Shown here: positions 32,524 through 44,949 of the stretch, in pieces
How positions within the stretch are numbered: position 1 is the first letter of the stretch
How the letters are laid out: each line of letters opens with the position of its first letter
Assembly: GCF_012027635.1 (NCBI RefSeq)
Contig: NZ_SNUS01000001.1
Span: 1,550,001-1,614,000, forward strand
DNA: 64,000 bases
Reading direction: 5' to 3'
Source: Thermococcus sp. 21S9
Lineage (GTDB): Archaea; Methanobacteriota_B; Thermococci; Thermococcales; Thermococcaceae
The notes under the pieces: model-generated
Databases searched by the model: none
What the model was told of the DNA's origin: nothing
The model's input: the letters and a program-made list of their open reading frames with translations, nothing else
Program-made: the position numbers and the translations under genes

Positions 32524-32784
32524 TCACACCTTTTCGGTCATTTCCTCGGCGACCTTGACCGAAAACACCAAATCATCGAGCGCTTTGATGAGGGTCTCAA
32601 TCTCACCCGAGTATTTAACCTTTGTTATGACGTCTCCATCAACCCATCGGGTTCGCACATTTAAACTTTTCTTTAGCTCCGCCGGCATGGCCTCATTGTC
32701 GACCTCTATCGCCTCCGCTATTGCCCTGGCCTTGAGTTCATCGCCGTAGTGCCACCGTATCTCAACGTTCGCCTCAATCCTCAT
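32524..32784 (-). CDS. pcc1: KEOPS complex subunit Pcc1
   Basis: 86-residue dimeric subunit of KEOPS, which makes the t6A modification on tRNAs reading ANN codons. The pattern [16 protein letters not shown]...[41 protein letters not shown] is that of Pcc1. It overlaps the end of the GAN gene by 11 bases, behind GGTGAAGAG. Confidence 0.92.
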
Positions 32785-34189
32785 TTCTCTTCACCTGCTT
32801 CGCCAGCGCTTCGTTGAAGTACCTGATGAACTCGTCTATCCTGCCCTTGGGGAACCTTATGCCCGCGGCAATGGCGTGGCCACCGCCTTCTCCACCGAGC
32901 TTCTCGGCGACCTCCTTCAGGGCCTCTCCAAGGTGGTAGCCCTTCTTAAGGGCCTTCTCGGTCGTCCTGGCCGATGCTTTGACGAGGTTCTCGTCCTCCT
33001 CGCTGTCCGCTATCACAACGACGGGCTTCTCGGGATTTGCCAAACCGGCGTTGATGGCCATGTTCGCCACTATGCCCACGAGTGTGTCGCGGATGTTCTT
33101 GCCGGCGTAGAAGACGTAGGCGTGCTCGCCTTCCTCGGCCATGCTCCAGTTCTGAATCAGAAACTTCCTCGCCTCTATCTGCTCCCTCTTGTAGTCCTCG
33201 AGCATCTTCCTGGCCTTCTTGTATGCGTCTTCATCGCCGAGGCATATCGCCACTCCGAGCGTTCCCGCGTTTAAACGGCCAGTAGCGTTGAGGAGTGTCG
33301 CGAACTCCCTCGCCTCGTGCCTGACGTCGCCCTCGGGATAGAGCGGGCTTATCACCACGTCGCCGATGAGCCTGTCTATTGCCTCCTTCGGCGCGGAGTG
33401 CTTTATCATGTGGACGAGCAAAGCCTCGTGGAGCTTCCGTTTTTCCTCCTCGCGGAGTTGCCAGTAGTGGACTTCCGGGTCGAAGCCCCTCGCGCGGAGC
33501 CACTCGATTGCCTTCCTCTCGTCGCCGGTAATCTCCGGTATTTCGGGATTGGTCGCGTAAGCCAACATCTGGTAGAGCGGTCTGCTCTCCCTGCCGAAGA
33601 GCCTCAACTCTTTTCTGACCTCGAGGATTCCGAGCTTTTTGCCGTCCTCAAGGATTTCAAGGTTGAGGCCGTGGAAGGTGCCGTCTATCTCCTGCATGTC
33701 TCCAACCGCGCCAACGGTCGCTACGTAGGCCAAATCCCTGTTCTTCCCGTCCATCTCCCTGGCCAGAAAGTAGGCGACGCCGGAACCGCTCAAATCGCGG
33801 ACGCTGTTGGCCCCGAAGGGAACCGGGTTGATGAGAACCTTGGATTCACTCGAGAAGTCTCCCTCCGGCGGGTGGTGGTCGGCCACGACGACCGTCCCGT
33901 CGAGCTTCTTCTCAATCAGCTCTATAGAACCGCTTCCGAGGTCGCTGAAGACGTATATCTCCCTGTTCTCCCGCGCGAGCTCGTCGATGAGTTCTTCGCT
34001 GACCTGCTTGACGATGCTGAGCTGAAACCTTCCGCCTTCCCTCGCTATCGCTTTGGCCAGAATAGCGCCGGCGGTAATCCCGTCCGCGTCGCGGTGCGAG
34101 ATTAGCCTTATGGTGTGACCTAACTCGATGTGCATCTTAATAAGCTCGGCTCCCTCGCGAACCCTCTCCAGAAAGGCTTCCCTGTCCAC
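32774..34189 (-). CDS. GINS-associated nuclease, archaeal RecJ/Cdc45-like; GTG start
   Basis: 471-residue DHH phosphoesterase matching GAN of T. kodakarensis, a 5'-3' single-strand exonuclease that binds the GINS subunit of the replicative helicase and is related to bacterial RecJ and eukaryotic Cdc45. Motifs: [12 protein letters not shown] (about 31), [25 protein letters not shown] and the C-terminal DHHA1 [13 protein letters not shown]. All catalytic motifs look intact, unlike Cdc45. Start is GTG 34189 behind GGTGATGCCCC. Its position next to S15 is the same as in T. kodakarensis. Confidence 0.93.
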
Positions 34190-34220
34190 GGGGCATCACC
34201 AAGGAAGAAGAAGGAGAGGG

Positions 34221-34676
34221 TCAGCGAACGAGGAGCTTTGCCTGCTCCGGGTCGTAGCGCCACTTCGCCGGAAGCTTTCCGGTTCTCCTGTAGTACTTGA
34301 CGAGGCGCCTAATCTTGCTCTCGGTGAGCTGGAGACCGCGCCTTGAGTGCTTGTCCTTGGGGTGCTGTTCAAGGTGCTTCCTGAGGTTGACGGCCTTCCT
34401 GATGAGGGCCATGAGGTCCTCAGGGTACTCGGGCGCGAGGCCGTTCTCCTCAAGAATCTTGGTTATCTTCTTGCCTGTGACGAGCTTAACGCTCGGTATG
34501 CCGTACTGGTCACGGAGAATCGTTCCTATCATGGCGGTGCTGTAGCCCTCTTTCCTGAGCTTAACGACGAGAGCCTCAACCTCCTCGGCGGTGTACTCCA
34601 CCCAGGTCGGCGGAGCGGTCCTTGGAGGCTTCTTTGAGCCTGACTTACCCCTCTTTCTCGCGTGCATCCTTGCCAT
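34221..34676 (-). CDS. rpsO: 30S ribosomal protein S15 (uS15)
   Basis: 151-residue archaeal S15, with the N-terminal extension typical of archaea ([34 protein letters not shown]) and the conserved RNA-binding part [36 protein letters not shown]. First gene of rpsO-GAN-pcc1-rps3ae. TATA-like GTTTTTAAAT (34752-34743) and a GC-rich leader of about 40 bases with GGGAGGTGG. Confidence 0.97.
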
Positions 34677-34797: not shown

Positions 34798-35295
34798 CTA
34801 AAAAACCCAAATCCTCGCTTCTCTGTACTCCCTGAAGGGCATCGTCAGGAGGAGTGGCTTTATCTTCTCGAACGTTTCCGTCGGAACGTAGAACTTCACC
34901 GAGCCGTTGGGGGCTTTAAGCTCGACCGGGGTCTGACCGTTGGCCTCGTTGCCGAGGAAGCCCTTTCCGCGCTTTATGGAGGTCTCCTCAACCCTCGCCA
35001 CGAAGCTCCTCTCGCTCTCCCTCGCGTAGTCATCGGCGCGCTCTATGAAGTCCGGCGGAAGTTCAAGGGAGGAGAGGTACCTCTCAACGGCCTCTTGGTA
35101 CTCCTGACCCGCCTGGAAGGCGACGTACATGGATAGGCTTGCCCCTCCGTACATGAGTCCCCTGTTCAGGGCGTCGCCCCACGTTCCCTCCTTCATTCTG
35201 ATGTAGTAGACCTTATCTCCCACAACGGCCCATATTCCAAACTTGGGTCTTCCCCTCGCTATCTCCTGAACTGGAACTATCAGCTGTGGCTCCAT
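34798..35295 (-). CDS. unknown cytosolic protein, 165 aa
   Basis: I do not recognise it. It has a beta-rich start ([42 protein letters not shown]), a small hydrophobic Gly/Ala segment ([28 protein letters not shown]), and a final strand-rich part. No signal peptide or conserved catalytic motif. ATG 35295 is six bases behind GGGTGA. It lies just after the calcium-repeat operon on the same strand (54 bases), so it may be a trailing gene of that operon. A T-rich tract follows the stop. Confidence 0.72.
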
Positions 35296-35349: not shown

Positions 35350-37995
35350 TCAGTCAACGTCGTAGGCGTAGCCCCTGACGGAGAAGCTGTAAACCCTGCA
35401 GCCGAAGTCATTGCAGGCCTTAACAGTCACGTGGTAGGTCGTCTCGTGCCTTCTGGCTTCGAGCTCGCTCTCGTCCGCGTACTGGACTGCCTTCTCGGTG
35501 ACGTAGTCAAAGGTGGCATCGATGAGCTTCTCCTTGACCCAGTCGAGCAGGCCCTCCTTGAAGGCCTCCTTCGAGAACTTCTTGGAGTCGCGCGCGTCAA
35601 TGCCCTCCTCCGCCGGCGCGTCCTCGTCCTCGGGAATAAAGGCCTCGACACCGCCAACGATTGTCTTTACCCCCTTGGCCGTTGCGACCATGCCGTAGAC
35701 TATCTTCGAGCCTATGCTCCTCGCCTCGACCATCTTCGCCGTCAGGACGCCGATGTCCTTCCCGGTCTTCATGACCTCAACGCTGTCCTCGTACTTCGTG
35801 TAAACGGTTCCAACGTCGCCTTCACCCGGAACGGTGTAGCGGTGGGGCACTATCCTCGCGTAGAAGAACCTCAGGCTTCTCGTGGTTCCGAAGTTGATTG
35901 TCCTCTTCTCCTGTCCGTTGACGAGGGCCCCGGGGACGGTTATCGTCACGTTCTTGCAGAACCGGCACTCGAACCGTAGCTTTCCGACGTCGAGGTTCTC
36001 GTCCCACGTCGCGTTGAGGAGCCTCACCACTGGGTCTGTCCGGTACTTCGCCTCGATGTTGAAGGTGTAGAAATATCTCTTCCAGTCGCCGTAGTTCAGC
36101 TCAACGTTAAAGGATACAAAGGAGAACCCAATCTCGGTCAGGTTCGTGAAGGTTATCGTGTACGTGCCGTTGGCTCCCTCAACGCGGTCATCGTCGTTGC
36201 CGTAAATGCTTATGTAGCTGAGATTGTACCGCTCTTCCCGCCCTTCCGGGTAGATGACTGTAACCGGGGGAGCTTCAATCCGGAACTCCGCTGTGTCGCC
36301 GTCAAGGACCACCGTTATGAACCCGTCGGGCTCTATCTCTCTTCCGTTCAGCAAAAACTTCACATCGTGCTCTACCTTTGGCTTCGGCGGTTCCGTTAGC
36401 TTGTCCTCGACCTCCCCGTACTTCGGCACCTCTATCGCCGGCGGGGCCTTCGGGTGGGACAGCGGGTCGGTCGGGTCCGTTCCTTCCTTCCATTCCACGA
36501 AGTCCGAGAATCCGTCGCCATCGGTGTCTGGTTTCGTTGGGTCCGTTCTTATCGAAATCTCCTCGAAGTCCGTCAATCCATCGTCGTCGGTGTCCGGCTT
36601 CCTCATGTCGGTGTGCCACCACGTAACTTCGGCGTTATCGCTTATCCCGTCCCCGTCGCAGTCCTGGAAGTAGGCGCAGGAGTCCCCTTCGATTATTCCG
36701 TCGGAGTCAAGGTCCTGCGCGCTCGATGAACCTGTGGAAGATTTGTAAACCTCGGTAACTCCCTCCGGGACTACTGGAACAACGTCAACCGAGTCCAGAA
36801 GTCCATCACCGTCAGTGTCCGGGTTTGCAGGGTTTAGATGAGTAATACGCATCTCCGTGATGTTTGCGAAGAAATAGGCGTATTCAAAGTTCACCTCCTC
36901 GCCGTCGCTCAAACCATCACCGTCGGTGTCTGGGGAGAGCGGGTTCGTTGCCGGCGGGATAAAGCAGACCTGGCCTTGGTACTCAAAGTAGGAATCGTCT
37001 ACGATGGGTTCAGGATAGGCTGAGAGCAGGTAGTCGTAGTTCTGGGCGCAGACCATGCTCCACGTCAGGCTGTAATCGAGTGTCCAGTTGTAGTAATATG
37101 CGAGTGTATCGGTTATAACGACCCAGTCAGGAGTTGCGTTGTGGTAGGCGTAATACGCGAGCTCCGGGAGGATCTCCTTGAGGTCGCTCAGTCCATCGCC
37201 GTCGGTATCACCTGCCAGCGGATTCGTGCCGAGCCTGACCTCCCAGCCGTCGTAGAGGCCGTCATCGTCGGAGTCTATCTCCACCGGGTTCGTCCCGGCT
37301 TCCAGCTCGTCCCTGTCGTTCAGCCCGTCCCCGTCACAGTCCGGGCTCGTGAAGCAGATGTAGAACTTCTGACCGTTGAGGAGGGGGCTCGGGTGAGAAT
37401 CGCCGTCCATTTCATACGCCGAATACGGGTCGACCGTTGGGTGATACGAGCCATCGTAGGGCAGAATCTCGTTGCCGTCAACTATTCCGTCGCCGTCCCA
37501 GTCGGAATTCAGGTAGAACGGCCTCTCCCATGCCTCCTTCCAGGCCGTCGTCATCTTGACCTCGAAGTAGTCGTCTATCCCGTCGCCGTCAGTGTCCCAG
37601 GAAGTTGGGTCCGACGGGGGCAACTTGACTCCGAAATCGCCGTAGACCTCGAACTTGTCGCTCAGGTGGTCACCGTCGGTGTCCGGGCTCCTCGGGTTCG
37701 TGCCGTAGAAGGCCTCGATGGCATCGCCCAGGCCATCGAAATCGGTGTCGCTCAGAAAAGGACTGCTCCCGAACTTAAGCTCGAAGCCGTCTGAGAGACC
37801 GTCGCCGTCGCTGTCGGGGTTGGCCGGGTTGAGGTGGTAAACCATACCGTAGTGGGTCTCGTTGTAGGCCAGCTCAAATGCGTCGCTCAGGCCGTCCCCG
37901 TCGGTGTCGAGGTAGGCCGAAGAATCGGCGACTGCTGGCACTGGCCGGGCCAGTGAAGCCAGTAGGAGGAAGATGAGAAGGAGCGTCTTCTTCAT
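35350..37995 (-). CDS. secreted protein with 15 thrombospondin-3-like calcium-binding repeats
   Basis: 881 residues. Signal peptide at 1-24 (KKTLLLIFLLLASLARPVPAVA), then about 500 residues studded with DxDxDGxxD loops (DTDGDGLSD, DSDGDGLSD, DTDFDGLGD, DCDGDGISD and so on; I count 15), each a likely Ca2+ site. They are followed by beta-rich Ig-like regions (about 540-720), a helical part with KGVKTIVGG, and a C-terminal beta domain. No C-terminal membrane helix or anchor is seen, so it is either free or held by partners. Start ATG 37995 behind GGAGGAAGG; overlaps the upstream lipoprotein gene by four bases. Confidence 0.88.
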   Translation of the reverse strand: MKKTLLLIFLLLASLARPVPAVADSSAYLDTDGDGLSDAFELAYNETHYGMVYHLNPANPDSDGDGLSDGFELKFGSSPFLSDTDFDGLGDAIEAFYGTNPRSPDTDGDHLSDKFEVYGDFGVKLPPSDPTSWDTDGDGIDDYFEVKMTTAWKEAWERPFYLNSDWDGDGIVDGNEILPYDGSYHPTVDPYSAYEMDGDSHPSPLLNGQKFYICFTSPDCDGDGLNDRDELEAGTNPVEIDSDDDGLYDGWEVRLGTNPLAGDTDGDGLSDLKEILPELAYYAYHNATPDWVVITDTLAYYYNWTLDYSLTWSMVCAQNYDYLLSAYPEPIVDDSYFEYQGQVCFIPPATNPLSPDTDGDGLSDGEEVNFEYAYFFANITEMRITHLNPANPDTDGDGLLDSVDVVPVVPEGVTEVYKSSTGSSSAQDLDSDGIIEGDSCAYFQDCDGDGISDNAEVTWWHTDMRKPDTDDDGLTDFEEISIRTDPTKPDTDGDGFSDFVEWKEGTDPTDPLSHPKAPPAIEVPKYGEVEDKLTEPPKPKVEHDVKFLLNGREIEPDGFITVVLDGDTAEFRIEAPPVTVIYPEGREERYNLSYISIYGNDDDRVEGANGTYTITFTNLTEIGFSFVSFNVELNYGDWKRYFYTFNIEAKYRTDPVVRLLNATWDENLDVGKLRFECRFCKNVTITVPGALVNGQEKRTINFGTTRSLRFFYARIVPHRYTVPGEGDVGTVYTKYEDSVEVMKTGKDIGVLTAKMVEARSIGSKIVYGMVATAKGVKTIVGGVEAFIPEDEDAPAEEGIDARDSKKFSKEAFKEGLLDWVKEKLIDATFDYVTEKAVQYADESELEARRHETTYHVTVKACNDFGCRVYSFSVRGYAYDVD

Positions 37996-38600
37996 TTTCC
38001 TTCCTCCGTCCAGACGATTTTGCAGGAGTCCCCTGCGAGGAAAGTGATGTAGTCCCTCTCGACGGCCTTCTCCTGTCCGTCTTTGACGAGAACGGCGCTG
38101 TAGTGGTAGGAGCACGCCACGAGGTTCGTGCTGATGACGGAGCAGTTGGGCTCGCTTACGCTCAGCTCCCTGAAGTCAACCGCCCGGTAGAGGGCCTCGT
38201 GAAGCTCGACGAGGGACCCTTCGTCCACGACGCTCAGGTCGAAGAAACTGCTGACGTTCTTCTCGTCCTTAACCGCCGAGTAGTAGGCCTTTATCAACCC
38301 GGGTGCCTTCGAGAGGCAGTCGAAGGTCGAGTCCGGAACGAGGGAGGCGTTCACCGCGAGGGTTCTGTTGAAGACCTCCGCCGTCACGACCCCGCTGGGC
38401 TTTTCCTCGACTCCAGCCGGCGTTTCCCCGGTCTGCGTCTGTTCGCCGGTTCCCGTTGAAACGGAAGGCGTGCTCGACGAGCCCGTTCCGGTCGCGCCCT
38501 GCTCCTCATCGGGGGTTCTGGTTGGGCTCTGGGCCGTACAACCGCTCGCGATGAGAACGCCAACGACGAGGAGCACGAGCAGAAGTCTTACCGCCCTCAC
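37992..38600 (-). CDS. small lipoprotein; GTG start
   Basis: 202 residues. Signal peptide with lipobox LIASGC (Cys about 21), a Thr/Ser/Gly-rich spacer to about 70, and a compact domain with four cysteines (FDCLSKAPG, EPNCSVIS, NLVACSYHY, DSCKIVW) that could form two disulfides. Family not recognised. GTG 38600 is seven bases behind GGGGGAGA and overlaps the preceding stop (GTGA); its stop overlaps the calcium-repeat gene. Probably anchored outside the membrane and functionally tied to its neighbours. Confidence 0.82.
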   Translation of the reverse strand: MRAVRLLLVLLVVGVLIASGCTAQSPTRTPDEEQGATGTGSSSTPSVSTGTGEQTQTGETPAGVEEKPSGVVTAEVFNRTLAVNASLVPDSTFDCLSKAPGLIKAYYSAVKDEKNVSSFFDLSVVDEGSLVELHEALYRAVDFRELSVSEPNCSVISTNLVACSYHYSAVLVKDGQEKAVERDYITFLAGDSCKIVWTEEGK

Positions 38601-39022
38601 TTCAGAATCTCCCCCTCTTTCTCAAGCATCTTCTCGTAGTTGGCGAGCGTCAGCCTTATCTCGACCTTGTCATCGAGGCCTTTCTCCATCTTCACGATGT
38701 CGCTTTCGCGCCGGTAGTCGAACCAACCGCGCTCTTCCTCCTCGTCCTCGTCGTAGTAGTCCTCGTAGCGCTCGATGTACTCGATGAAGACCCTCTTCAC
38801 CTTAGACCTTCGTATGAGGCCTACCTCCTTCTCCGCCACGTAGACTCTCGAAATCTCCCACCACCAGTCCTGGTTGCCAGTCCTTATCTTAATCTCCGGC
38901 CGGTACCTGCTCAGGACGTTCCACTTCTCCGCGAGCTCTCCGGCCCTGAGCTTGAACTCCTTGTGCCGTATGTTTTTCACGATTGTTGATGTTGCCTTCT
39001 TCAGGGAATCCATAAACCCCAT
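38597..39022 (-). CDS. cytosolic protein of unknown function in exported-protein operon
   Basis: 141 residues with no signal peptide. Basic N-terminal helix (DSLKKATSTIVKNIRHKEFKLRAGELAEKW), a central strand region with WWWEISRVYVAEKEVGLIRRSKVKRVFIEYIERY, a very acidic stretch (DEDEEEE near 95), and a final segment. No known family. It is the only apparently cytosolic member of the operon and might be a regulator or inner-face partner. ATG 39022 behind GGTGAG. Confidence 0.75.
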   Translation of the reverse strand: MGFMDSLKKATSTIVKNIRHKEFKLRAGELAEKWNVLSRYRPEIKIRTGNQDWWWEISRVYVAEKEVGLIRRSKVKRVFIEYIERYEDYYDEDEEEERGWFDYRRESDIVKMEKGLDDKVEIRLTLANYEKMLEKEGEILK

Positions 39023-39064
39023 TTCATCTCACCTTCCGGGTCTTGAAATTTGAAAAAAGAAAGT

Positions 39065-41482
39065 TCACCATCTCCTGTGGTTGGGTCCAAGGAGGACGTA
39101 GAAGTCGTTTCCGGCCCAGGCGTAGTAGTAGTTCGCGTGGTAGCTGACGTGGCAGTAGCACTCGTCCTCACCGTAGACGTAGTCGGGCGTGAATGGAACG
39201 CTGAAGGACTGGTCGAGCGTCAGGTTGAGGTAGTACACCCTGTTGTCGTTCTCGTCATAGTAGTAGCCGGTCGTCACGTTGTATAGGGCTATCCTCCCGT
39301 CGAAGCCAACGGCCAGCTGGGTGTCGTAGGTGTTGTACATTATCGAGAACGTTTTGGCTCCGGAAATCGTAACTGTTGCCGGGTATACCTCGACTACCGG
39401 GACGTAGATGTCGTTGGAATCGTATTTGCCCGTCAGCTCAATCCAGGTGAAGCGGTCACCGTTGTATATCACCGCGTCCTCTGTGTAGTGCTGGTAGGCG
39501 AACTTTCCGGGGGCGTTGGTGAGCAGGGTGTAGAGCTTTCCGGCCCCGTACTTGTAGTAGCCGGCGACGTCGTAGAGGTAGAGGCCGGTCTCGGTTCTTA
39601 TCAGCAGACCTTCTCCGTACTTCATCGGATAAACTGCCACGATGTCCTCGGGGAGCGTTATCGACTTGGGTGTGACCGCGGGCAGTCCATTCTGGCGGGC
39701 GTCGTAAAGCTGGTCGCTCGTGTAAGCAATCACGTAGAGCGTTTTACCCTTCCAGGCCGTGTAGTAATAGTTGCTCCTCCTCGCGAGGGCGGTCACGCCG
39801 TCGGCGTCTATGTTCCAGCTCACGTAGCCGGTGGTTTCGTAATACCGGATTTTGCCCTTTGGCGTGTCCTCGCTCTTCAGTTCGTTGTCGTAGATTAGGT
39901 AGAGTTTTCCGTCGGTTCCCGCGAAGAAGGGCTCGTCGGAGTCGTAGATGTTGATTGAGATGTCCTTTGGCGTCGCGGGGAGAACATAGACGGCGCTCAG
40001 GCTGTACTTGTTGATGTCTTCACCGCTGTAGTACAGGTTCCTTATCTCCCCGCCCCTGACCCTAACGAGGTAATTCCCGAAGGCGAAGTAGACGTCGGGA
40101 AGCCCTGCCGAGGCGTACGAGGCCCATCCCATCCAGTCGTGAACGTTCCTATAATCCGGGCTCTTCAGCAGGTGAATCTTCACGCCCTTGAGGTCTCCGA
40201 AGTTAACCTCCTCGAAGGTGAACGATTCGAGAACGCCCTCAAGGTTCAGCTCCCCCGGCGCGGAGGTAGACGTGCCCGTCTCGCCCGTCGTCTCCGTTCC
40301 CGTGCTCTCACTCAGCTCCTTTCCAACGCTGAAGGTGTGCTCGCCCTTGAGCTCTGAAACGGGAACGACGATGTGGGCGAAGCCCCTGCTCCACGCCACC
40401 CCGATTTCAAGCGTGTTGTCGTCGGGCTGAACGAGTTTGACGTCGAGAACGAGGTCGGGGAAGGTTATGGTCCCGACGTAGTGGTACGCGCTGTCCTCGC
40501 CAAGCTCGTAGAGGTAGAGCTTGTTCCCGTACGCGAGCGCGAGGTAGAACCAGCTGAGCGATGCCGATGACGGCCGTTTCTCAACCTTCAGAGGCTCGCT
40601 CACGTAAACCGCGTCGTCGTCCCAGTCGTAGTAGGTCGTGACGACCGAACTTGAGTCGCTTGAGTACAGAACCACGCTTCCAACTTCGTCGTGGTCGTTC
40701 GAGACAATCTGCCAGCTATCATCGCCGAGGCCGGAATCGTGGACGTTGAGGTCGGGGTCAACGTAGTAGAACCCGCAGGTGGTCCCCATGTAGAAGCCCG
40801 CGATGGTCCCTTCTCCAAAGGCCGGGTGCATAGAGAGGATTGTGCAGTCAAAGGTGTACTCCTCGCTCTCGGCGTTTCCACTCTCAAAGGTCGTGACGGT
40901 GAGGTTGTCCTCAAAGGACGTCACTATCGCGAGCTTTCCCCCTATCACCGTGGTCGCGTAGGCAAGTACACCCTTCTTTTCGCGGTACTTGTTGAGGGAG
41001 CGCAGGTAAACGCGAACGACCCCGTTCTCCCAGCCGATGTACTTGTCATCGTCAAGCCGTATGAAGTCGAAGAGGTCGCCAACCACCCTTCCGGCCTCAG
41101 TGTAAACCCCATCGTCCCTGAGCTCGAAGTAGTAAACGTTCTTTCCGACCTGAAAGACCACGTTGCTGGCGGAAACCTCGTCCGGCGATGCCTCCCAGTT
41201 GGCGCTCGTCTTCGCGAAGTCCGCGGGCTTGTCAATGACTATGACTTCCACCTCGGCGTTCGTGCCCGACAGCGAACCCGTGTGAAGGGAGTAGCCAAGT
41301 TCTTCCGTCGGCTCAAGGTTGAGGCTCTGGTAGGCCCAGGGCTCTGTCTCCGGGCTTTCTCCGGGCGCGGTCGTTGAACTGGTCGCGGATTGGCTCTCGG
41401 TGGTTGGCGTGTTGGTTCCGCCCATACAGCCGGCGGATAGAACCACAAAAACGAGAAGGATTGCAATCAAAACCCTCTTCAT
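39065..41482 (-). CDS. large lipoprotein of unknown function
   Basis: 805 residues. Signal peptide and lipobox LSAGC (Cys about 19), a Thr/Ser spacer (to about 48), then repeated short beta segments with Tyr/Asp/Gly-rich turns throughout (VGKNVYYFELRDDGVYTE, KYIGWENGVVRVYLR, NKLYLYELGEDSAYHYVG, TGLYLYDVAGYYKYG). The pattern suggests a beta-propeller-like fold in two parts separated by a Thr/Ser linker (about 395-415). Family not recognised. ATG 41482 behind GGGGTGG overlaps the upstream stop (ATGA). Confidence 0.82.
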   Translation of the reverse strand: MKRVLIAILLVFVVLSAGCMGGTNTPTTESQSATSSTTAPGESPETEPWAYQSLNLEPTEELGYSLHTGSLSGTNAEVEVIVIDKPADFAKTSANWEASPDEVSASNVVFQVGKNVYYFELRDDGVYTEAGRVVGDLFDFIRLDDDKYIGWENGVVRVYLRSLNKYREKKGVLAYATTVIGGKLAIVTSFEDNLTVTTFESGNAESEEYTFDCTILSMHPAFGEGTIAGFYMGTTCGFYYVDPDLNVHDSGLGDDSWQIVSNDHDEVGSVVLYSSDSSSVVTTYYDWDDDAVYVSEPLKVEKRPSSASLSWFYLALAYGNKLYLYELGEDSAYHYVGTITFPDLVLDVKLVQPDDNTLEIGVAWSRGFAHIVVPVSELKGEHTFSVGKELSESTGTETTGETGTSTSAPGELNLEGVLESFTFEEVNFGDLKGVKIHLLKSPDYRNVHDWMGWASYASAGLPDVYFAFGNYLVRVRGGEIRNLYYSGEDINKYSLSAVYVLPATPKDISINIYDSDEPFFAGTDGKLYLIYDNELKSEDTPKGKIRYYETTGYVSWNIDADGVTALARRSNYYYTAWKGKTLYVIAYTSDQLYDARQNGLPAVTPKSITLPEDIVAVYPMKYGEGLLIRTETGLYLYDVAGYYKYGAGKLYTLLTNAPGKFAYQHYTEDAVIYNGDRFTWIELTGKYDSNDIYVPVVEVYPATVTISGAKTFSIMYNTYDTQLAVGFDGRIALYNVTTGYYYDENDNRVYYLNLTLDQSFSVPFTPDYVYGEDECYCHVSYHANYYYAWAGNDFYVLLGPNHRRW

Positions 41483-41880
41483 GACACCACCCCAAGAAAA
41501 CGCGGTCCGGAGGGTAATCCCACGGGAAGGCCGAGAAGAGCTGTTTTAGTTCCCCACAAACGACATGCTTGGTTTTTTCGTTGGCATATGGCTCCATCGG
41601 GGTCGGGATTGTTGGGAGGGGCCCGCGAAACGATGATGTCATGAGCATTGGGGAGTTGGGGGAGTTCATACTCCCCTTCCGCGCCATCCTGGAACTTCAA
41701 GAGCCCATCGGACGGACGTTCGAGGAACTTAATGAGAGCGGATTCGGGGTCAGGGCTATCCCCGTCGTTTCTTGGGGCCACCTCACGCCCCGGTTCCTGC
41801 GAATACCCGACGTAGACCGTCCCGGCGACGGCCCCGAGAACAATCAAAATGACGACCGCCACCGCAACTGCCTTCCTCAT
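41479..41880 (-). CDS. small membrane-anchored protein, first gene of the lipoprotein operon
   Basis: 133 residues. N-terminal hydrophobic helix (RKAVAVAVVILIVLGAVAGTVYVGY) without a lipobox, then an Asp/Pro-rich extracytoplasmic part. The last 30 residues (from CQRKNQACRLWG) look unlike a folded domain and could reflect a frameshift or a recently extended end. ATG 41880 follows GGAGGGCTTCCC. It starts the operon behind TATA-like sequences at 41918-41927 or 41945-41953. Confidence 0.6.
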   Translation of the reverse strand: MRKAVAVAVVILIVLGAVAGTVYVGYSQEPGREVAPRNDGDSPDPESALIKFLERPSDGLLKFQDGAEGEYELPQLPNAHDIIVSRAPPNNPDPDGAICQRKNQACRLWGTKTALLGLPVGLPSGPRFLGVVS

Positions 41881-41975: not shown

Positions 41976-42854
41976 TCAAATCAGAAAGCGCAGGGCGACG
42001 AAGAGCCCAATGACGAGGAGAGTGAGAACGAAGGTTACGCTTATCGCTTCCTCGGCCTTGAGCCTGTACTGAGCTAAAATCGCGTTGGCCGCTATTGCTG
42101 GGGGCATGCTCGCCTCGACGAGAACCGAGTAAAAGACCTCGGGCTTGGCCCAGCGGAGGGTGAGGAAAACGAAGGCGAAGGGAATCGCAATCCTGAAGGT
42201 TCCAACTTCCAGGAGCTTTCTGACGTCGAAGGCCCTCAGCGTTATCCTCGAGCCGAAGTAGATGAGGAGGAGCGGTATGCTGAGCCAGCCGATTGTTTTT
42301 ATCGGCTCGATGATTCCGGCGGGGAGCTTTACCCCCGCTACCACGAGTGCCAAAGCGATTAAATTGGCCAGCGTTGGCGGGAACTTGAGGGCCTTCAGAA
42401 AGCTCTCCCTGACGCTCGCGCCCCCGCTGGAGTAGTGTGCCGCTATGAAAGTCACAATCGGAATGACTATCATCGAGTTGGTCGTCGAGTAGAGTATCGC
42501 CGGCGTTATGTCGCTGAGGAAGAGGCTCGCGATTGGAAAGCCCAGCGCGGCGGTGTTGGGGTAGATAGAGAGCACCATCAGCGCGCCGGCCCAGGGGTCG
42601 TCCTTGAGCTTGAAGCGACCGTAGAGGTAGGACGTTGACAGGCTTATGCCGATGACGAGGAAGACGTAGAGGAAGACCGTCTTTATGCTGAGTAGATAGG
42701 CCAAATCCTTGCTCGCGACGTTGCCGAAGATAAACAGGGCGAGCAGAACGTCGTTGACCAGAATCCGGAGGTAATCGAAGGGCTTCTCCGATTTAATCAG
42801 CCTTTTGAGAACGTAGCCCAGAGCTATGAGCGCGAGCATCTCGGCGATGTTCAT
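41976..42854 (-). CDS. AEC family (auxin efflux carrier-like) transporter
   Basis: 292-residue membrane protein with about ten helices in the AEC/BASS-like pattern. Recognisable parts: LVNDVLLALFIFGNVASKDL near 35, LSIYPNTAALGFPIASLFL near 93 and SMPPAIAANAILAQYRLKAEEA near 250 (the helix-break regions used for substrate binding). Substrate unknown, probably an organic anion. ATG 42854 is at the end of the gene-poor 42855-42925 stretch. Confidence 0.88.
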   Translation of the reverse strand: MNIAEMLALIALGYVLKRLIKSEKPFDYLRILVNDVLLALFIFGNVASKDLAYLLSIKTVFLYVFLVIGISLSTSYLYGRFKLKDDPWAGALMVLSIYPNTAALGFPIASLFLSDITPAILYSTTNSMIVIPIVTFIAAHYSSGGASVRESFLKALKFPPTLANLIALALVVAGVKLPAGIIEPIKTIGWLSIPLLLIYFGSRITLRAFDVRKLLEVGTFRIAIPFAFVFLTLRWAKPEVFYSVLVEASMPPAIAANAILAQYRLKAEEAISVTFVLTLLVIGLFVALRFLI

Positions 42855-42912: not shown

Positions 42913-42940
42913 AGTGAATATAATCTCAGTGAATATAATC
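42913..42940. repeat. tandem 13-base direct repeat at the 3' end of the OLD gene
   Basis: AGTGAATATAATC occurs twice, separated by TC. One copy encodes the last residues and stop of the OLD-family gene; the other lies immediately downstream. It may be a slippage duplication at the edge of the acquired segment. Confidence 0.65.
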
Positions 42941-44845
42941 GAACTCATCACTAAATTCCGGTTCAAATCCACATTTTCTTATTGCTTTTTCAAGTATCTC
43001 CCTAAATTCAGATGGGACTTTTTTCTCTTTAAGCATCATTTCAAATAGTTTTGGGGTTATCTCCGCTTTTTCGTCATTCCATTTTTTACGAGATAGTAGC
43101 TTGTCAACACTCTTAACGATATCTTGGCAAGGAGATATTGTCATAGCTTTGAGCTCATTGTGTTTTTCTTCTAGCTTTCTTAATCTAGCCTCTATTTTTT
43201 TGAAATAATTAAAATATTTTCTTTCAAAATACTTTTCAATTTTATTCCCAATGTCTCTAGGGTGATCTTTGAGTTTAGTTTTATATTTAGAGTTAATGTA
43301 TCCTTCAGTGAAGTATTTTTCGATAATTTCAGGCAAAATATAATTTTCGATTTCTCTCTTTTTGAGAATATGGACAGTAATCCCATATTTTTCAAATTTT
43401 TCTTTTATCTCAAGCTTTTTAGGTTCCGGTTTGCAATTTCCATTGTCATCAATTTCACTTCCATCGGAATCTACAACAATAATTGCATTGGGAGTTAATG
43501 AAGCAAATCCATTAGACAAAAGTGTATCAGATAAATCATAAATATTATTTCCTCCTAAACTAATAATTGCAATATTATACTCTTCCCACTTAGGGCATAT
43601 TGCTTTTGCGATTTTGTTGAATACTTTAATCTCCGTTTTTCCTTCAACATAAATAATACCGTTTGATAGGAATAAATCACTTGGAGCCGCTCCAATTTCC
43701 TCAAGGATTTCAGATAACCCTTCAGCTTTCTCGAATGTTTTAATCTTTGTTTCTCCATTTTCTCTCTGTATGAGCCATATTGATTTTAAATCACTTCTAT
43801 CCACGAATATTGTTGAATGAGTTGTTAGGAGAACCTGAGCCTCGTTGCTTATACGTTTTAATGCATAGAACATCTTTTTCTGAGCCTCTGGATGTAAATA
43901 AAGTTCTGGTTCTTCAAAGAGGATTATATAACCCTTTCCTGCACCAATCTCCGCCCATGCTCTAAACATAGCCAAAAGAAATTCACTTCTAAGGCCTGCA
44001 CCTCTCTGTTCAAGTGGGACACCATTTGGCAAGTGTTTATCTTTGATTCGTATTCTAGGACTAAAGTTAATTTGGAGCTTATTTGGTTCAATTTCTATTT
44101 TTTCAATTGAATCACTAAATACAGCCATTTCAGCTAAAATAATTTCTTCTAACTTTTTGGACTCTTTACGGATTGCATCTTGAAGCTCTTTTTTTAGTTC
44201 TACTATACTTTTCTGTTCATTATCCCGGTTTTTTTCACTTTGTTTTTCTAGAATTGGAGAAAGAAGCTTAGACATTAAAAAACCAGATTTTTGTGTTGTT
44301 TCCTCAATTACATCTCTTATTGCCGAAATGTAGATAACCTCGGGGAGAGCGTGCAGTATTGTGCGGATAAGACCTTTATTTTCAATTTTAGTCCATTTAT
44401 TTTTACTTTCGTCAAAATACTCTACAACAGTCTCCCCCTTATAATTACGCCCTTTAAGCTTTTCTTTTTCAAAAATCCTTTTTATTTTTATCTTACTGTT
44501 CTTGGGGTTCTGTTTATAAGATTTATTAAAAAACGCTTCAAGTCCTTGTCCTCTTGGGAGGTTACCGCTAGAATTTATGCCTCTCATAATCTCATCATTG
44601 TCAGTAACATCAAATATTAAAGATATTTCAATGTTTTCATTGGTATTTTTATGGAAATCTTCTTTAGTTACTCTCACATTCTCCAAAACTATCCTGATTG
44701 CGTTTAAAATGTTTGACTTTCCAGCATCGTTTTTTCCGATGATTGTAACAAAGTTTTCAATCTCCTGATATTCTTTATCCTCTGGAAGCTCTTTGATGGA
44801 TCTATAGTTCTTAATTTTTAAACCAATTAATCTTAAAGTACTCAT
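42926..44845 (-). CDS. OLD-family ATPase/TOPRIM nuclease, solitary, AT-rich
   Basis: 639 residues. N-terminal SMC-like ABC ATPase: Walker A GKNDAGKSN (about 36-44), then a Lys/Glu-rich helical insertion, Walker B YIILFEEPELYLHP with catalytic Glu, and the His of TTHST. C-terminal TOPRIM: GIIYVEGKTEIKVF and IIVVDSDGSEIDD. OLD nucleases are phage-defence or DNA-processing enzymes; class 2 members (GajA) sit beside a UvrD-like helicase, which is absent here, so this is a class 1-type stand-alone gene. Base composition and Lys/Ile/Asn use are sharply more AT-rich than all neighbours. ATG 44845 behind GGGGGATT. Confidence 0.9.
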   Translation of the reverse strand: MSTLRLIGLKIKNYRSIKELPEDKEYQEIENFVTIIGKNDAGKSNILNAIRIVLENVRVTKEDFHKNTNENIEISLIFDVTDNDEIMRGINSSGNLPRGQGLEAFFNKSYKQNPKNSKIKIKRIFEKEKLKGRNYKGETVVEYFDESKNKWTKIENKGLIRTILHALPEVIYISAIRDVIEETTQKSGFLMSKLLSPILEKQSEKNRDNEQKSIVELKKELQDAIRKESKKLEEIILAEMAVFSDSIEKIEIEPNKLQINFSPRIRIKDKHLPNGVPLEQRGAGLRSEFLLAMFRAWAEIGAGKGYIILFEEPELYLHPEAQKKMFYALKRISNEAQVLLTTHSTIFVDRSDLKSIWLIQRENGETKIKTFEKAEGLSEILEEIGAAPSDLFLSNGIIYVEGKTEIKVFNKIAKAICPKWEEYNIAIISLGGNNIYDLSDTLLSNGFASLTPNAIIVVDSDGSEIDDNGNCKPEPKKLEIKEKFEKYGITVHILKKREIENYILPEIIEKYFTEGYINSKYKTKLKDHPRDIGNKIEKYFERKYFNYFKKIEARLRKLEEKHNELKAMTISPCQDIVKSVDKLLSRKKWNDEKAEITPKLFEMMLKEKKVPSEFREILEKAIRKCGFEPEFSDEFDYIH

Positions 44846-44949
44846 GTAATCCCCCAATAGTCATTTTACTTAAACTACTTAAAAATTTTTAGTACCCTTT
44901 CAGAGTCTTCAGTCTTCGAAAGAATTATGAAGAAAAAAGAAGTGTGGGG

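Follow-up and report, generated by a model that had tools for sequence, protein, structure and literature searches.

A cluster of genes in Thermococcus sp. 21S9 can be read as a modular, horizontally exchanged surface-display cassette, which serves contact or recognition and occupies one chromosomal slot in part of the Thermococcaceae; we give this reading a probability of about 0.5. The cluster lies in the window, i.e. the whole stretch of 64,000 nucleotides that was analyzed from this genome (G000; ~1.92 Mb). The cassette genes and their flanks are as follows.

Left flank, outside the cassette: 41976-42854, minus strand, PF03547 membrane transport protein (Pfam, E=4e-12)
Gene A: 41479-41880, minus strand, 133 aa, single N-terminal membrane segment; optional member
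Gene B: 39065-41482, minus strand, 805 aa, putative lipoprotein with two predicted beta-propellers
Gene C: 38597-39022, minus strand, 141 aa, without signal peptide; cassette marker
Gene D: 37992-38600, minus strand, 202 aa, putative lipoprotein; partner of E
Gene E: 35350-37995, minus strand, 881 aa from the ATG, exported; TSP3 stalk at about residues 30-512, head at about residues 540-881
Sixth gene: 34798-35295, minus strand, 165 aa, without signal peptide; belongs to the cassette
Right flank, outside the cassette: 32774-34676, minus strand, S15 (34221-34676) and DHH/DHHA1 (RecJ-like), from Pfam and synteny

A preliminary description of this DNA had reported five genes coupled by overlaps or short gaps. 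This arrangement is present: all five lie on the minus strand, four-base overlaps occur at the A/B, C/D and D/E junctions, and 42 bases separate B from C. The list of open reading frames gives E as 921 aa, starting from a GTG upstream of the ATG. The number five needs revision; the sixth gene, which starts 54 bases after E, also belongs to the cassette, and A is optional. Scattering of the genes in related genomes, which the description had named as the observation that would speak against it, was not seen. In the loci read, the cassette genes that are present lie together, and on this point the description therefore stands.

Protein E carries TSP3 repeats. Pfam TSP3_bac (PF18884) matches it in 11 stretches (E=6.7e-52; 173.3 bits with a curated cut-off of 25), and a motif count found 14 strict DxDxDG loops; in 2000 shuffles of E the strict loop occurred on average 0.13 times and at most three times. 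The fifteen loops counted earlier are reached only if the last one is included, because it reads DxDxDH. With such repeats, calcium would stiffen E. The protein has no anchor of its own, as had been proposed: its N-terminus is signal-like and no other 19-residue window exceeds 1.23 on the Kyte-Doolittle scale. The sequence of the stalk varies among relatives; the tail after the last loop is nearly constant, with a length of 388-396 residues in eight proteins. In an alignment of eight proteins, the last 234 residues of the seven relatives are 68-97% identical to those of the window's E, and four cysteines are kept in this part throughout.

The structural model of the E head is weak (overall pLDDT 59, pTM 0.47). 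It contains a fairly well predicted beta-sandwich at about residues 540-651 and a second sandwich, interrupted by helices that were predicted with very low confidence. Structural matches of this model are mostly to Ig and FN3 domains, the best with a Z of 7.8, which is within the range of chance arrangements; the head may be Ig-like. A sequence search of solved structures returned no match to the head up to E=5. Fold matches to viral proteins (36 at E≤0.001) were not used since their TM-scores were 0.35 or lower. A scan of genome contigs, which may omit records near the window's genome, found the head at two loci, both from Thermococcus MAGs that were already counted.

Proteins B and D both start with a hydrophobic stretch that leads up to a cysteine (C19 in B, C21 in D) and fits a lipobox, which makes them putative lipoproteins, in line with the preliminary description. 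The same source called D cysteine-rich; the protein has five cysteines, and one of them is the lipid cysteine. The alignment of D shows a variable linker, which is followed by a domain with four invariant cysteines. Neither Pfam nor sequence searches of solved structures assigned a fold to D. The best rows in the latter search were a pullulanase for D (E=0.007) and also for B (E=0.006); both matches lie in the signal and linker and were set aside.

The propeller-like nature of B agrees with structure prediction. The model (pLDDT 77, pTM 0.51) predicts a double beta-propeller, of which the C-terminal half is clear: residues 429-800 match a WD40 domain with a Z of 20.6 over 296 residues at 3.9 Å. 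For the N-terminal half, a propeller is suggested only by the strand pattern and by a few rows with two-propeller proteins. BLASTP found no similarity between the two halves of B, and no Pfam propeller family matched B above its cut-off. B occurs in several forms and positions among the cassettes.

Protein C had been described as cytosolic. A hydropathy scan indeed found no hydrophobic segment, but the N-terminal segment is strongly amphipathic, with a hydrophobic moment of 0.54 that was equalled in only 6 of 2000 shuffles. The moment was 0.47-0.59 in six versions of C, with 5-28 of 2000 shuffles as high. Searching solved structures by sequence with C gave nothing up to E=5, and neither this search nor Pfam assigned a fold. 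A relationship of C to the 165-aa protein found no support; the profile comparison gave a probability of 0.3%.

Gene A encodes the membrane-anchored peptide that was expected, with an N-terminal hydropathy of 2.82 on the Kyte-Doolittle scale. A homolog was found by tblastn in three of 52 loci besides the window, i.e. in four genomes. Its first ~60 codons are well conserved (pN/pS ~0.2-0.5 over this part) and its tail is not. Near the end of A a second frame is also well readable, which raised the question of a frameshift; this was rejected, as the region in question already overlaps B at its start and the tail is unconserved in relatives. The 165-aa protein is 80-95% identical among relatives. 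Six of the eight genomes that carry its gene have it directly after the form of B called B850/Bx853; in the window and in G013 the gene is present without this form, which looks like the relic of a swap. Of the proteins given to PADLOC, only C obtained a match, a single weak row (E=0.071); the 165-aa protein, B, D and E had none. Pfam matches to New_glue fall in the linker, with a best E of 1.4e-4, and are below the cut-off for the window's proteins. They were set aside as chance or low complexity, and so were those to SBP_bac_11 (best E=0.0037) and Imm42 (E=0.13, below the cut-off) and the weak ones to UL20A, DUF7537 and Arena_ncap_C.

The slot itself occurs in an empty and a filled state. 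The PF03547 transporter gene upstream of A is present in 57 of 61 genomes of the genus, and cassette genes follow directly downstream in 18 of these 57 (G043 and G048 were scored as filled by coordinates). In 37 of the 57 the slot is empty: a peptidase gene stands next to the transporter and the compared stretch contains no cassette gene. The spacing between transporter and peptidase is then 49-502 bp, and less than 100 bp in 31 of the 37 cases. The peptidase belongs to the M42 family (Pfam, E=2.2e-70, in the one genome checked). One genome, G033, was left unjudged, as its contig ends without a gene after the transporter. In G006 the transporter adjoins S15, and the cassette is found elsewhere, adjoining M42. 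In five genomes S15 plus DHH/DHHA1 replace M42 as the right neighbor: the window's, G013, G037, G050 and also G045, where the contig is split. The slot is therefore also a point of rearrangement. Genes neighboring the cassette include PF03547, OLD-like, MMPL, S15, DHH/DHHA1 and S3Ae. Among the genomes searched, the cassette was seen only in Thermococcaceae.

A profile search found C in 23 of 94 genomes of the order, and in the same 23 among 115 genomes of the phylum; a match to C in G023 (27 residues, E=4.3e-4), which this search did not return, was dropped. B is present at E≤1e-12 in at least 20 of the 94, and 19 of these 20 also carry C; the sole exception is G033, a genome that is 74% complete. 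The lack of B elsewhere is not absolute, because in most genomes B was scored on the best ten candidates. Four genomes with C have no match to B (G037, G049, G034 and G048): B is absent at the locus of G037, the locus of G049 is truncated by a contig end, and in G034 and G048 bases are, or probably are, masked. The D profile matches 93 of the 94 genomes. Only 14 genomes, with E≤7e-67, were counted, and all 14 have C; the other matches, which among those listed reach an E no better than 4.7e-10 and run through the signal and linker, were dropped. The E head occurs in ten of the 94 genomes, all ten with both C and D. Two of these ten are cut by a contig edge, so that just the last 146 (G045) and 28 (G046) residues of the head are visible; for G045, the part of E before it was located at the end of a different contig. 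E could be judged in all but four of the D genomes, masked bases being the obstacle in those four, and D never stood without E where it could. The 165-aa gene is found in eight of the 94 genomes, always with C. Fisher p values for these co-occurrences, which ignore kinship among the genomes, are 4.7e-15 to 4.4e-6.

In G064 and G065, C adjoins a B-type gene, without D, E or the flanking genes of the slot. Together with the counts, this makes C and the B-type lipoprotein the best-supported core, and D and E a paired add-on; A and the 165-aa gene are accessories. The fixed five-gene complex of the preliminary description does not survive: B is missing in G037, and D and E are missing in G064 and G065, and so no single complex fits all cassettes. 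Furthermore, the form and position of B vary, as do gene content and order, and A is confined to four genomes. The suggestion that a lipoprotein is the partner of E fared better. D accompanies E in ten of ten genomes, which fits a role of D as anchor of the unanchored rod.

The cassettes are also mosaics. G007 and G009 share 97% identity in C and 88% in the transporter; between G000 and G010 the values are 56% for C and 94% for the transporters. Over 105 pairs the identities of C and transporter correlate weakly (r=0.36). A tract of 474 bp with 96.4% identity covers C in the comparison of G009 with G007; upstream of it, the transporter region forms a tract with 84% identity, and no match extends into the neighboring genes to the left or right. 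Between G050 and G007, the final ~218 bp of E contain two mismatches, and identity is 28-82% in the remaining 150-bp blocks of this gene. The transporter of G050 is 97% identical to that of the window, yet G050 has no match to A, and its B differs from the window's and sits after E. In these comparisons, the borders of recombination tracts fall inside E and set C apart from its surroundings. What varies is the stalk, B and the gene content; the head of E is conserved.

How could such a cassette work? The lipid of D would hold D in the membrane, and D would tether E. Stiffened by calcium, the stalk of E may carry the conserved head clear of the S-layer. B could form a second platform at the surface that displays binding surfaces, and C may attach to the membrane from inside via its amphipathic segment and help in assembly or signalling. 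Contact or recognition might be directed at other cells, surfaces or viruses, and a pressure for diversity would drive the swapping of parts from strain to strain. That exchange occurs between flanks which are closely similar points to diversity being favored. Three observations count against this explanation. The first is conservation of the E head, although the part that distinguishes strains would be expected to vary. The second concerns the proteins themselves, since single structure predictions, which had been proposed as a check, gave the double propeller of B and only a low-confidence head of E, and D and C lack an assigned fold. The third is the lack of any single complex that would fit all cassettes, as seen in G037, G064 and G065.

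An unlikely alternative is that E and D are a contact-dependent toxin and its immunity protein: the TSP3 stalk would carry the C-terminal domain of E, its helical insertion would harm the membrane of a neighboring cell, and D would act as immunity protein. The constant pairing of D with E, the variable and patchy locus and the helical insertion in the model of the head are consistent with this idea. However, the C-terminal ends of toxins are usually variable, and in E this is the most conserved part. Orphan immunity genes are common in toxin/immunity systems, and D was never such an orphan where this was judged. Apart from the chance-level Imm42 match, no toxin or immunity family emerged from Pfam. 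Hence we consider a toxin/immunity function of E and D less likely than tethering and recognition.

It is similarly improbable that polymers are captured as nutrients, or the S-layer stabilized as an envelope scaffold, by the calcium rod together with the propeller proteins, so that the patchy distribution would mirror the niche. Many binding and scaffold proteins contain Ig-like domains, propellers or TSP3 stalks, and several structural matches of the E head are carbohydrate-active proteins, all with Z below 8. Pfam and NCBIfam revealed no enzyme, transporter or S-layer family on the cassette proteins, and the exchange within similar flanks argues for favored diversity instead. That the genes travel as cargo on a mobile element such as a virus or plasmid is very improbable. 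Patchy insertion at a fixed slot would agree with it, as would the C plus B units that G064 and G065 carry at unrelated sites, but there is no tRNA gene in the 64-kb window and no integrase among the neighboring genes scanned with Pfam, viral contigs scanned by pattern contained no relative of the E head or C, and the plasmid matches to E (36 records) are all below 60% identity, with none covering 80%, the ten listed falling within residues 16-379, i.e. the repeat region.

A surface cassette for contact or recognition thus remains our preferred reading. A bolder version, which we regard as rather doubtful, is an archaeal contact system for self and nonself that has not been described before, with E as a rod tethered by D, B as swappable receptors and C at the inner face, in which strains switch type by recombination through the shared flanks. 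If this is true, Thermococcus populations would recognize partners, rivals or viruses via the type of their cassette. Cell recognition and surface diversification are poorly understood in archaea, and the locus offers a compact test case. The slot is empty in most relatives within the genus, whose genomes otherwise lack its families; these relatives are natural controls, and the pairing of D with E yields a direct biochemical prediction. We found no account of the locus in open-licence papers, in agreement with the preliminary description, whose author knew of no archaeal system with this set.

Several known systems share single features with the cassette. The myxobacterial proteins CglD (NF033765) and MtsD (NF047639), named in NCBIfam as a gliding lipoprotein and a cell-cell cohesion protein, are also exported and have TSP3 repeats; similarity to E is confined to these repeats and far below the curated cut-offs (118.9 bits with a cut-off of 400 for CglD, 73.7 bits with a cut-off of 800 for MtsD). 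Polymorphic toxin systems likewise combine a long exported protein with a small adjacent gene in a variable locus, but the C-terminus of E is conserved and no toxin or immunity family scored above its cut-off. WD40-type beta-propellers have the same predicted fold as B, clearly so at residues 429-800; the identity is ~10% or less in the matches listed, and B is an exported putative lipoprotein.

The nearest published kind are the VARTIG islands of Thermococcales (Makarova et al. 2021, PMC8416519), which are described as variable, exchanged modules that encode exported proteins, contain Ig-like domains and recombine within genes. All these traits recur in the cassette, the Ig-like domains as a prediction for the E head. 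According to that account (PMC8416519), the large Ig protein stands at the 5' end of the operon and has a variable C-terminus, often with DNNxxxGG (D[ND]NxxxG[GD]) in many but not all members, and an RNase III-like gene lies beside the exchanged genes on several occasions. In the cassette, A and B come first, the TSP3 protein E is the fifth of six, and its C-terminus is conserved. The motif is absent near the C-termini of B, D and E, which were read, and Pfam detected no RNase III-like gene among the neighbors, although a very distant homolog could escape it. For CARDB-like Ig domains, which together with arCOG07710 are a further mark of VARTIG, Pfam gave no CARDB match on the cassette proteins at E≤1; the VARTIG paper used a more sensitive method. 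On gene position, C-terminal motif and RNase III-like neighbor, we therefore reject membership in VARTIG as described there. Its putative propeller lipoproteins set the cassette apart from VARTIG in that description, and Thermococcales would thus have a further variable module for the cell surface, the second one, with parts of another kind.

Immediately upstream of the PF03547 transporter gene, which forms the left flank of the slot for the surface-protein cassette, lies the following gene:

42926-44857, (-) strand, OLD-family nuclease-like gene (PADLOC and Pfam)

It gave a PADLOC match to Old with E=5.3e-54, and Pfam assigns it AAA_15 and OLD-like TOPRIM domains. The G+C content shows a local dip across this region, 0.425 versus about 0.55. 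Because another genome, G013, carries a 150-aa gene at the position that the OLD-like gene holds in the window, the side of the transporter away from the cassette may be a second variable site.

The window's own genome contains another, weak TSP3-like match (E=8e-5; contig C1 1070625-1070750, locus L016 1501-1626), which sits within an open frame of 1272 residues.

The PF03547 match in G090 is spread across two frames (locus L069 2520-3379); the transporter gene adjoining the cassette of this genome may therefore be broken. In G006 (loci L080 and L026) the transporter is found beside S15 at one site and the cassette beside the M42 peptidase gene at another, as if the slot had been cut by a rearrangement.
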